38,280 nucleotides of DNA from Candidatus Woesearchaeota archaeon (GTDB lineage Archaea; Nanobdellota; Nanobdellia; Woesearchaeales; DSVV01): NCBI GenBank assembly GCA_018303075.1, contig JAGVYW010000035.1:1-38280 (forward strand), written 5' to 3'. This document shows positions 1 to 33,979 of this stretch, one piece after another. The stretch's first letter is position 1, and each line of letters starts with the position of its first letter. Below the pieces are notes generated by a model that saw nothing but the letters and a program-made list of their open reading frames with translations, ran no database searches and had not been told where the DNA came from. Position numbers and translations under genes: made by a program.

Positions 1-957
1 CATAACAATCTGAAATCTTTGAGAAGGAATTCCTGTTCTTGCTCTATAAGTTGGCTCAAAAGCAATTCCATTTAATCCAACACCAACTGATTCGTGAGAA
101 GAAATAATTGCTCCGTTATATTTCTTGTCTATCTGAACTTCTTGTCCATCAACTTTCATAGTAAAATCAGCAACTTCCCAAAAAAACTTGCTGAAACTGC
201 TGTATGGCAGAGCAAGGTTTGCAAATATCTTTTTTAGAGTGCGTAATGTAGTGTAAAAACCCTTTTTTACATGTGGATCAAAATATTCATTTGGCACTTT
301 TACAATCTCAGAGTATTTATCTCTTGCATTAAATAGATTATCAGCTTTAAAGACTAAGCTATCATAACCTTCTGGAGTTCCACCGTAATAAATCCATAAT
401 ACTTTAGTTGTCAATCCAAAACCAATATTAAATGCTTTCAGACTATTTACATCTAAAATTCCCAGTTCTGATGTCTTTAATTGCTCATGTCTTGCATATT
501 TTCTAGCAATGTAAATTGCCATTTTTTCAGCTTTTGTTAAAAGCAATTTATTAAAATATTCAAAATTAACAAAATCTAACGTTTTTCTGACATCTTTTCT
601 TGTTTGGTCAACTAATCCATTAGTCAAATCAAATGGAGTAACCCAATTTACAATAGTACCATTTGGAAAACCAGCTATCATAGAAGGCATTTGCCCAAAA
701 ATCTTATAGAAATTTGTTAATGCAATATGTGCTGCACCATCTCCACCACCAATTCCTAAGATATCAGGAGCATTGCCATTTTGAGAATGAGATTTATAAT
801 CTTCAATTTTAGAAACTAAATCAGCAATAGATTCCGTAAACAATACTTCTGAATTAAGACCATTGTCTGGCATGGATAAAATACGCTCAATATTTGAAGC
901 TTCATCTCTATTAAATCCACCTGCACGCATGTTCATAATAGTAAGCATTGATGTCAT
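1..957 (-). CDS. Diacylglycerol-kinase-like lipid kinase (3' end outside window)
   Basis: Not a complete ORF because the gene runs off the left edge; 319 codons are open on the minus strand from ATG at 957. The N-terminus (residues 5-20, INMRAGGFNRDE-like) resembles the NP-x-G segment, and GIGGGDGAA near residue 79 followed by AGFPNGT near residue 96 resembles the GGDGT and PxGTxN nucleotide-binding loops of the DAGK/YegS/NAD-kinase fold. Later KVDGQEV and a glycine-rich GVGLNG segment match the C-terminal beta-sandwich. Known relatives phosphorylate lipid alcohols; the archaeal substrate is unknown. An alternative start is ATG three codons downstream. The family assignment rests on motifs only. 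Confidence 0.6.
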   Translation of the reverse strand, partial: MTSMLTIMNMRAGGFNRDEASNIERILSMPDNGLNSEVLFTESIADLVSKIEDYKSHSQNGNAPDILGIGGGDGAAHIALTNFYKIFGQMPSMIAGFPNGTIVNWVTPFDLTNGLVDQTRKDVRKTLDFVNFEYFNKLLLTKAEKMAIYIARKYARHEQLKTSELGILDVNSLKAFNIGFGLTTKVLWIYYGGTPEGYDSLVFKADNLFNARDKYSEIVKVPNEYFDPHVKKGFYTTLRTLKKIFANLALPYSSFSKFFWEVADFTMKVDGQEVQIDKKYNGAIISSHESVGVGLNGIAFEPTYRARTGIPSQRFQIVM

Positions 958-7644: not shown

Positions 7645-8844
7645 TTAAGTAGTTATCTCTAACTGATTGCTTACTTTTGTTGTTAAAATAGAATTACCAA
7701 TGCCTTTGCCAATGAAAAATGCTGTTCTATCGCTTGATGTTCTGAATATATCAAAAAAGCTTTTTGGTTTTTTGTATTCAACAAGTGAAGCTGTGATATT
7801 AAGCTGCTGTTGAATGTAATTTACTGCTTGTTGTTTGCCGCCAAGATCATCAATCAAACCAAGCTTTTGCGCTTCACTGCCTATGTAAACTTGACCTGTT
7901 GCTAATTCTTTGACTTTCAATGGATCAAGCTTTCTATTTGCTGCAACTTCCTCAATAAAATATGCGTGGATATCGTCTAATTCTGACTGAAAGATATCTT
8001 TTTCTTCAATTGTTAGTTTTCTAAATGGTATTCCCATGTCTTTATATTTTCCTGCAGTAAGACGTTCATAACCAATTCCATACTTCTCCATCAATCCTGA
8101 AAATTCTAAGTATGAACCAATTACACCAATACTTCCTACAAAAGACATCCTATGAGCTACAATATGATCAGTTGCAGAAGCAACCCAATATGCTCCTGAA
8201 GCGCCAAGCTCTCTGACCCATGCAACTGTTGTCTTGTTAACTGATTTTATTTTTGCTGCAATCTCATCAGATGCTACTCCAGAACCGCCTGGAGAGTTTA
8301 TCTCAAAAATAATTGCTTTAATTGCTGTGTTTTTCTCTGCTTTTTCAATTTCTGCAATTATTTCAGTTGATGAAACTAATCCTCCATCATCAAAAAATGA
8401 TTCAGCAGCATCGCCAACAATAACACCTTTCAATGGAATAACAGCAACATTGCCTGTGCTATCTATCCCATCTGATGATGACATTGAGATCAAACTTATT
8501 ACTAAAATAACAATCAAAACGAAGAAAAAAAATCCTATGAAAGCAATTGGAGCTAATAAGAAATACCATAATTTGCTTTTCTTTGGCTTTTCTTCATATG
8601 AATGATATGAATGTGAATATTCAGAGTGATTATTTGAATGTTCAGAAAGCTCATTGAAATTTTTATTATTTTTAGTATCTCTTTTAGAATCCACTGCTAC
8701 CGTATACTGCTTTTCTTTTTGTTGTCTTTTTTGCACAGAAGAAAGCGTACTCGTATCTGAATTATCTGCTACTGAGAATTTTTCTGCGTCGATTGACATA
8801 TTTTTTTCTGTAAGATTTTTTTCAAGCTCTTTTTCTTTTGGCAT
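7645..8844 (-). CDS. sppA: Signal peptide peptidase SppA (family S49), membrane-anchored
   Basis: From ATG 8844 the protein has 399 residues. Residues 1-90 are charged with a short His/Ser/Tyr-rich patch (about 67-84), one TM helix lies at about 92-120, and the rest is an S49 protease domain. The Ser/Lys dyad is visible as ELGASGAYW (S216) and TAGKYKDMG (K266), with the oxyanion region INSPGGSG at about 183-190. Archaeal SppA degrades signal peptides left in the membrane. The ORF extends upstream to 8883, but the TATA box lies inside that extension, so those 13 residues are not translated. Confidence 0.9.
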   Translation of the reverse strand: MPKEKELEKNLTEKNMSIDAEKFSVADNSDTSTLSSVQKRQQKEKQYTVAVDSKRDTKNNKNFNELSEHSNNHSEYSHSYHSYEEKPKKSKLWYFLLAPIAFIGFFFFVLIVILVISLISMSSSDGIDSTGNVAVIPLKGVIVGDAAESFFDDGGLVSSTEIIAEIEKAEKNTAIKAIIFEINSPGGSGVASDEIAAKIKSVNKTTVAWVRELGASGAYWVASATDHIVAHRMSFVGSIGVIGSYLEFSGLMEKYGIGYERLTAGKYKDMGIPFRKLTIEEKDIFQSELDDIHAYFIEEVAANRKLDPLKVKELATGQVYIGSEAQKLGLIDDLGGKQQAVNYIQQQLNITASLVEYKKPKSFFDIFRTSSDRTAFFIGKGIGNSILTTKVSNQLEITT

Positions 8845-8866
8845 GGCTATCTGTATAATGAGAAGA

Positions 8867-8874
8867 TTTATAAA
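8867..8874 (-). promoter_or_regulatory. TATA box that fixes the sppA start
   Basis: TTTATAAA is centred 26.5 bp upstream of ATG 8844 and downstream of the longest ORF start (8883). A leaderless transcript would therefore begin at 8844. Confidence 0.75.
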
Positions 8875-8935
8875 TTCTTTCATTTTTATAAAAAATTACT
8901 TATAATTGTGTGAATAGTAATTATTTTTCAAATTA

Positions 8936-9297
8936 ATGCGGGGTAATTTTTTATTAGCAAGAAGAAAGAAGAAGAACAAAGAATTGAGCAAGAACAGCAA
9001 GAGATACGTAGAGTTATACTCCCAAAAGGCAATCAAGTATTTGGTCTGCTTGAACAAAGGCTTGGCGGAAGCAGAAATAGAGTCAGATGTATGGACGGCA
9101 AAACAAGAATCTGTAGAATTCCTGGCAGATTAAAGCGAAAACTCTGGGTTAGAGAAGGAGATTTATTGCTTATTGAACCATGGGAGCATGGCGGAGAAGA
9201 AAAAGCAGATATTATTTTCAAATATAGGCATAATCAAGTTGATTACTTAAAACAAAAAGGTTTCTTAAAAGGATTAGATGATTTAGAGAGCTTTTAA
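8936..9297 (+). CDS. Translation initiation factor aIF1A, apparently needing a -1 frameshift or AUU start
   Basis: The aIF1A sequence is clear: EIRRVILPKGNQVFGLLEQ, NRVRCMDGKTRICRIPGRLK, VREGDLLLIEPWE and a C-terminal YLKQKGFL, an OB-fold that occupies the ribosomal A site during initiation. Its frame has a stop at 8944-8946 and then no ATG, GTG or TTG before 9091, which lies inside the OB-fold. ATG 8936, near a TATA box at 8900-8907, opens another frame that reaches a U-UUU-UUA heptamer (8947-8953) in exact phase; a -1 slip there enters the aIF1A frame, giving about 120 residues. AUU at 8953 with GGGGT 8 nt upstream, or a T-run sequencing error, are the alternatives. Confidence 0.75.
8947..8953 (+). 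other. U-UUU-UUA slippery heptamer in aIF1A
   Basis: T 8947, TTT 8948-8950 and TTA 8951-8953 are in the X-XXY-YYZ phase relative to ATG 8936 and shift -1 into the aIF1A frame. No strong stimulatory stem or pseudoknot is obvious just downstream, which weakens the case for efficient slippage. Confidence 0.45.
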
Positions 9298-26052: not shown

Positions 26053-26088
26053 AGAATTCTGTAAAAATTACTATTTTTACAGAATTCT
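26053..26088. terminator. Perfect 16-bp bidirectional hairpin between Zn-ribbon and glyA
   Basis: AGAATTCTGTAAAAAT (26053-26068) and its exact complement (26073-26088) flank a TACT loop. The zinc-ribbon stop ends 2 bases before it, and the glyA stop overlaps its other end. It shares its core with the hairpin at 1490-1519. Confidence 0.7.
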
Positions 26089-27389
26089 TAGTTGTGATGA
26101 ATTATTGTGGTAATTACAATAAGTTTAGATAATGAAACAGAAAAGAAACTGCGAGAGATTGCTAAACAAAAATAAAAGAATAGCAAATCAGACGGACAGA
26201 AAGCATCAAAATTATTTATAATATTTGCTATGATCTCTCCAACCTGTTTCATCTCATCTTCTTTAAAACCACGCGTTGTTAATGCAGGCGTTCCTAATCT
26301 TATGCCTGATGGATTAAATGGAGAACGTTTGTCAAAAGGAATCATATTTTTATTTGTATACATTCCAACAGTATCTAATGCTGTCTCAACTTCTTTTCCG
26401 CCTTTATTATCTTTTGTACAAAGCTTGGTATTTGAAAGGTTGATCAATACAAGATGATTATCTGTGCCATTGCTGATCAAATCAATACCCTTATTCATCA
26501 ATGTTTGAGCTAATACTTTTGCATTTCTTAAAACTTGCTCTTGATAATGAATAAAATCTTTTTGCAATGCTTCTTTAAATGCAACTGCTTTAGCTGCGAT
26601 AACATGATCTAAAGGACCACCCTGCATTCCTGGAAAGATTGCCTTATCAATTGCTTTTGCATGAATCTCTTTACAAAGAATAAATGCTCCTCGCGGACCT
26701 CGTAATGTTTTATGTGTAGTTGAAGTAATAACATCACAATAAGGTATAGGATCAGGATGTAATTTTGCTGCAATTATCCCAGCTATATGTGCAATGTCTG
26801 CCATTAATAATGCACTGCAACCATCTGCTATCTTCTTAAACTTCTTGAAATCTAATTGTCTTGGATATGCTGAGAATCCAGCTAATAACATCTTTGGCTG
26901 AGTTTTTTGTGCAATCTCCTCTACTTCGTCCATATTAATTAGATGTGTTATAGGATCAATTCCATATGAAGAAAAATGATAATGTTTGCCTGAAAAATTA
27001 ACAGGAGAACCATGCGTCAGATGACCACCATGTGCCATATCCATACCAAGAATTGCATCATTTAGTTTTAGTAATGCAAAGAATGCTGCCATATTTGCCT
27101 GCGAACCTGCATGTGGCTGTACATTTGCGTGTTCTGCACCAAACAATTGTTTGACCCTATCTAATGCAAGCTGTTCTGCAATATCAATAAATTCATTGCC
27201 GGCATAATACCTTTTTTTTGGATAACCCTCTGAATATTTATTTGTTAATACTGTTCCAAGAGCTTCTAAGACTGCAAGTGATACAAAGTTTTCAGAAGCA
27301 ATTAGCTCAATCCCATTTCTTTGGCGCTGTAATTCATTTTTTAATGCAGCATGAAGCTCAAAATCAGCTCTTTTTAGATTGTCTAACAA
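26088..27389 (-). CDS. glyA: Serine hydroxymethyltransferase with an unusual C-terminal tail
   Basis: The 433-residue PLP enzyme interconverts serine and glycine using a pterin C1 carrier. ELIASENF (28-35), [11 protein letters not shown] (91-101), MADIAHIAG (196-204) and the PLP lysine in [11 protein letters not shown] (K227) are present. The TTG start is supported by AGGTGAT 3 bases upstream. Normal homology ends near residue 395; the last 37 or so residues ([15 protein letters not shown] and following) are odd, hydrophobic, and are encoded antisense to a small antitoxin fragment, so the original stop seems to have been lost. The YggS gene lies upstream on the same strand. Confidence 0.92.
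26107..26175 (+). pseudogene. N-terminal fragment of a ribbon-helix-helix (CopG/VapB-like) antitoxin
   Basis: A GTG-started 22-codon ORF encodes [20 protein letters not shown], the exact look of an RHH strand plus first helix, then stops. The second helix is missing, so it cannot fold alone. It lies on the opposite strand inside the 3' end of glyA. Confidence 0.5.
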
Positions 27390-33480: not shown

Positions 33481-33541
33481 TTATAATGATAATCTTCATA
33501 GAAATACATTGAGATAAGTGTGTAATGGAAGTGATTGTAAG

Positions 33542-33979
33542 ATGGTTGAAGAACTTAGACTTAATGCAGCAAAACGATTTGGAACTAGATATGGAAGAAC
33601 TGTAAAACAGCGATTTATAGAAGTTGAACAATTACATAGAAAAGCATACAAATGCGAACATTGCACTAAGATAAGAGTAAAAAGAATTGCTGCAGGAATC
33701 TGGCAATGCTCAGCATGCAATTCAAAATTTGCAGGAAAAGCATATACTCCTAGCAGATTAAAACTAGCTCAAATTACTGGTAAAGAGGTAATGGAAGACG
33801 ATCTTTTAACACCTCGAGAAAAAGAAGAAAATTATAATGCTGATCAAAATGAAAATCAGCCACAAATAAAAGAAGAAAGCCAAAAAGAGAAAAAAAGACG
33901 TAAAAAAGAGCTGTTAGAAGAGCAGCAGCAGAAAGAAGATCAAGAGACTCAAGCTCAAGAAGAAAATCAAACAGAATAA
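33542..33979 (+). CDS. rpl37ae: Ribosomal protein eL43 (L37Ae) with a long charged tail
   Basis: From ATG 33542 (GTGAT 6 bases upstream) the protein has 145 residues. The first 80 are a normal L37Ae: AAKRFGTRYGRTVKQR, zinc ribbon CEHC (about 40-43) and CSAC (about 58-61), and FAGKAYTPS. A tail of about 60 Glu/Gln/Lys-rich residues follows, absent from usual archaeal homologues. The tail may be a disordered extension or assembly factor contact. First gene of the eL43-rpoP-pcc1-pfdB cluster. Confidence 0.93.
   Translation: MVEELRLNAAKRFGTRYGRTVKQRFIEVEQLHRKAYKCEHCTKIRVKRIAAGIWQCSACNSKFAGKAYTPSRLKLAQITGKEVMEDDLLTPREKEENYNADQNENQPQIKEESQKEKKRRKKELLEEQQQKEDQETQAQEENQTE

Follow-up and report, generated by a model that had tools for sequence, protein, structure and literature searches.

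The window analysed here, a 38,280-nt stretch of a Candidatus Woesearchaeota archaeon assembly, carries on its plus strand a coding sequence for the initiation factor aIF1A (8953..9297), which yields a protein of 114 aa if translation starts at the ATT at 8953. The gene product is aIF1A beyond doubt: a profile search places it in the OB-fold family PF01176 of Pfam (63.6 bits against a cut-off of 30.2), the NCBIfam IF-1A models also score above cut-off (TIGR00523, 107.4 against 102.9), and the protein aligns with the aIF1A of relatives. The gene is single-copy in the 1.24-Mb, 95% complete assembly, and since Haloferax volcanii needs aIF1A for life (PMC3828320), this one copy is presumably expressed. 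Its frame opens past a TAA at 8944-8946 and continues TTT TTT ATT AGC AAG AAG AAA GAA; as the initial annotation had recorded, no ATG, GTG or TTG follows that stop until 9091, a position already inside the OB-fold. An ATG at 8936 opens a different frame, listed as an ORF of 65 codons (8936..9133, plus strand), which is probably not translated as such, as it has no upstream Shine-Dalgarno motif and its TATA spacing is off.

Other genes of the window show features of their own. The SppA-like gene (7645-8883, minus strand) likely starts at its second ATG (about 8844, MPKEKELEK), which has a TTTATA box 30 nt upstream; the other ATG, at 8883, is on the far side of this box. An eL43-like ribosomal protein (33518-33979), from a family with a length of about 91, bears a C-terminal charged extension of about 70 residues rich in Glu, Lys and Gln, and the end of a GlyA-like protein (26088-27389, minus strand), beyond residue 393, is hydrophobic and looks unrelated, with no continuing match seen by eye in the other frames.

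To place the start of aIF1A we relied on comparison with loci from members of the family and order and from public genomes (mostly Candidatus Woesearchaeota), of which 103 distinct loci cover the region before the anchor motif FGLLEQ and are thus readable. An in-frame ATG precedes the anchor in 102 of these 103 loci, the sole exception being the aIF1A of the window. The commonest start, used in 44 loci, falls 29 codons before FGLLEQ, and the ATT at 8953..8955 (plus strand) sits at exactly that codon. Among the 37 loci with an S-K/R-K type N-terminus, 35 have ATG and one has CAC at this codon, with ATT found only in the window, where the peptide ISKKKEEEQ pairs with the MSKKKEEEQ-type N-termini of relatives. 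The CAC locus (L093/L011) has an ATG 5 codons upstream of the S-K-K-K motif, its ancestral start having been replaced, and would be a precedent that makes an upstream start possible in principle. The initial annotation, which had proposed either -1 frameshifting or an AUU start for this gene, had named close relatives with an ordinary ATG in the aIF1A frame as evidence that would speak against it; relatives do show such an ATG, with the nearest readable ones at only ~66-73% protein identity. The sole congener, G001, breaks inside aIF1A (its contig is public record JACRKF010000047.1) and retains the last 28 codons only, and the upstream part of the gene is absent from all other G001 contigs. 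A search of 353 genomes of the order for ATH followed by the S-K-K-K-E-E motif gave 53 matches, and among those retrieved as loci the only aIF1A was that of the window itself; a scan of IMG/VR found no relative. Taken with the alignment, the position of the ATT suggests that translation most likely begins at 8953. As a separate observation, the aIF1A of another member of the order, G236 (L172, G236:C195, near 230), carries TAA in place of a conserved Gln codon, its frame being intact elsewhere.

The leader of the gene points to the same codon. In a 444-kb sample of the genome (375 ORFs, 333 of them with a usable ATG), two modes of initiation can be seen: a TATA box peak at -28 to -32 from the ATG, as in leaderless mRNAs, and a peak of Shine-Dalgarno 4-mers at -8 to -14, these 4-mers preceding 31% of ATG starts against a background of 3.4%. 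The form of the Shine-Dalgarno motif was assessed from these upstream statistics because the 16S gene is truncated in the assembly to its 5' part, leaving the anti-Shine-Dalgarno tail unreadable. The motif GGGGT stands ahead of 12 of the 333 ATG starts, against 0.17% in the background, and it occurs at 8940..8944 on the plus strand, 8 nt before the ATT at 8953, just as the initial annotation had placed it; at -13/-12 it falls within the -8 to -14 peak. On the statistics of this genome, GGGGT is thus a real Shine-Dalgarno form and is well placed for the ATT, and no other candidate start preceded by a Shine-Dalgarno motif exists in the aIF1A frame ahead of the OB-fold. A possible TATA box for the gene is TTTATAAA (8885..8892, plus strand), an 8/8 match with a predicted leader of roughly 35-40 nt; CTTATAAT (8899..8906, plus strand), a 6/8 match, is a weaker alternative that predicts a leader of roughly 20-25 nt. 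A box about 32 bp upstream of the ATG at 8936, as had been claimed, was not recovered: the nearest is the 6/8 match starting at -37, and perfect TTTATAAA boxes start at -51 and -69.

The relatives are arranged differently. A TATA box lies ~30 nt before the ATG in 90 of 101 of their aIF1A loci (box start at -34 to -29 in 92 of 101), and a Shine-Dalgarno motif precedes only four of the 101, so that aIF1A appears nearly always to be leaderless-like in the order; for this reason a leadered aIF1A would be a departure in the genome of the window, whichever start codon is used. In the single-copy state of the gene, the OB-fold protein, the MSKKKEEE-type N-terminus and the start position, our locus matches those of its order-level relatives, but where they have ATG and usually a TATA box about 30 nt upstream, it has ATT and a Shine-Dalgarno-like leader.

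We therefore favor an ordinary single-copy aIF1A in which translation would start at 8953, where relatives have ATG, directed there by the putative Shine-Dalgarno form GGGGT on a short leader. Two versions of this reading may be distinguished, and frameshifting would play no part in either. The organism may truly use AUU, its weak initiation being rescued by the Shine-Dalgarno motif, or it may have ATG at this position, and the ATT would then be a one-base flaw in the contig or a variant carried by a minority. Initiation at AUU, though rare, does occur in essential initiation-factor genes, as in Escherichia coli infC (PMC5472188), and the AUU route that the initial annotation had offered as its second possibility fits both the homologous start position and the spacing of the Shine-Dalgarno form, the reality of AUU itself hanging on an unproven letter. 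Within the 444-kb sample, however, ATT follows Shine-Dalgarno motifs in 12 of 178 cases, the level of a non-start codon, against 29% for ATG, and this lack of enrichment speaks against real use of AUU.

Base-level lesions also occur in this genome. We compared it with 1,219 ORFs of two family members (G003 and G004), which gave 148 genes with a full-length relative, and after shadow ORFs and tails had been removed by eye, ~3 of the 148 comparable genes (~2%) looked truly broken. In L144 (372 to about 700, minus strand) the frame of an HTH-like gene slips by one base at a run of A; near 7306 in L147 a topoisomerase-like gene switches frame and lacks about 25 residues that its relative has; and in L137 (8871-9278) a stop interrupts the frame of a NUDIX-like gene where its relative encodes Gln. 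Each of the three may be either an assembly error or a true pseudogene. On a very rough reading of such counts, one lost start codon among about 1,300 genes would be unsurprising. Because ~3 of 148 comparable genes carry an unrelated lesion and the 444-kb sample shows no other use of ATT as a start, we rate a real AUU and a base-level flaw as about equally likely: genuine use of AUU at 8953 by the organism is quite possible, though short of an even chance, and an ATG in the organism behind a flawed or minority base in the contig is a tentative reading of much the same weight. The initial annotation had also raised a missing T in the T run as a dull alternative; a base-level flaw is fully alive, but a substitution of the ATG is at least as likely a form of it as a lost T.

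A flaw of that kind would also permit a different start. If an assembly error affected the T run or another base nearby (as far as about 8990), or if the living organism differed there by one base, the ATG at 8936 would come into frame, the protein would gain 6-7 residues (MRGNFFISKKK...) and the ATT would be the decayed remnant of the old start. The conserved gene in L144 (near 372-700, minus strand), with its one-base slip at a short run of As, demonstrates that this genome has lesions of the kind, N-termini of this length are tolerated (the loci of seven relatives start 36 codons before the anchor), and L093/L011 combines an upstream ATG with a replaced ancestral start. Against this stand the lack of a Shine-Dalgarno motif before the ATG at 8936 and the position of the best nearby TATA-like box, a 6/8 match whose start at -37 misses the interval of -29 to -34 in which the box begins at 92 of 101 aIF1A loci; the reading would moreover need two coincidences, a GGGGT placed as if for the ATT and an ATT one base off ATG at the exact ancestral position, and we regard it as rather unlikely. 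The alternative put forward in the initial annotation, that aIF1A is made by a programmed -1 frameshift at T-TTT-TTA from the ATG at 8936, relies on a heptamer (8947..8953, plus strand) that is indeed of the X-XXY-YYZ form and in exact slippery phase with that ATG, as had been stated. TTTTTTA, though, is at background frequency in this AT-rich genome, where the window contains 60 copies for an expectation of 56.8, and 45 lie in slippery phase within ATG-started ORFs (338 kb of ORFs in the 444-kb sample). GGGGT, only 3 nt before the heptamer, is too close for a dnaX-type -1 stimulator. The 87 nt downstream show no structure (folding z = +0.90, with 165 of 200 shuffles folding at least as well), the ATG lacks a well-spaced promoter or Shine-Dalgarno motif, and the aIF1A genes of relatives stay in a single frame from the ATG onward, none of them having or needing a shift. 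Cellular -1 frameshifting in archaea is documented in one gene, fucA1 of Saccharolobus solfataricus (PMC8211752), which likewise has a slippery homopolymer heptamer between two frames; a putative stem-loop 5-9 nt beyond the slippery site is common to fucA1 and the other known -1 cases (PMC8211752) but absent after 8947-8953, and whereas fucA1, with its putative stem-loop and rare codons, has been tested experimentally, the aIF1A locus shows none of these elements. A -1 route to aIF1A thus finds no backing in downstream structure, heptamer frequency, relatives or TATA spacing; it is very unlikely that a frameshift is needed, and the heptamer is best taken as a coincidence.

If the AUU at 8953 is real, it might also be autocontrolling: free aIF1A, with aIF1, would reject AUU, and the factor would thereby curb its own production, just as IF3 is autocontrolled via the AUU of infC. 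The ATT stands at the right start position behind a Shine-Dalgarno motif, with the proviso that its last letter may be a base-level flaw, and the logic has support in the literature, Sulfolobus aIF1 favoring discrimination against non-canonical starts and eukaryotic eIF1 autoregulating through a poor start context (PMC6237735). That discrimination is, however, aIF1's, whereas autocontrol here would need rejection of AUU by aIF1A itself; a base-level flaw explains the T equally well, ATT is known from one genome only, and the non-AUG start is not conserved, all 102 other readable loci having ATG and the contig of the congener ending before the site. As assembled, the gene resembles bacterial infC in being an initiation-factor gene with AUU behind a Shine-Dalgarno motif. 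It differs in factor and domain of life, and a non-AUG start of infC is found repeatedly among bacteria (AUU in E. coli, AUC in Streptomyces; PMC5472188), while the ATT of aIF1A is a singleton and its autocontrol putative. The feedback switch envisaged in the initial annotation has no comparative support, since ATG is present in all relatives whose N-terminal region is readable, and a conserved infC-like switch is not supported. Lineage-specific control through AUU is possible but unlikely. We consider autocontrol at 8953 decidedly improbable, and give as little credence to the corresponding scenario, in which aIF1A, once leaderless and started at AUG, would in this lineage have come to start at AUU behind a Shine-Dalgarno motif and to be autocontrolled through start-codon fidelity, as an independently arisen archaeal counterpart of infC.

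In conclusion, the aIF1A of this genome is an ordinary finding unless the ATT is confirmed. Should the letter be a flaw, which is about equally likely, the locus would illustrate how single-base lesions, seen here in ~2% of comparable genes, can mimic recoding in metagenome-assembled genomes. Should AUU prove real, it would represent an archaeal initiation factor started from a non-AUG codon, and would make it possible to test directly if the factors behind start-codon fidelity in archaea are self-controlling, like bacterial IF3 and eukaryotic eIF1.
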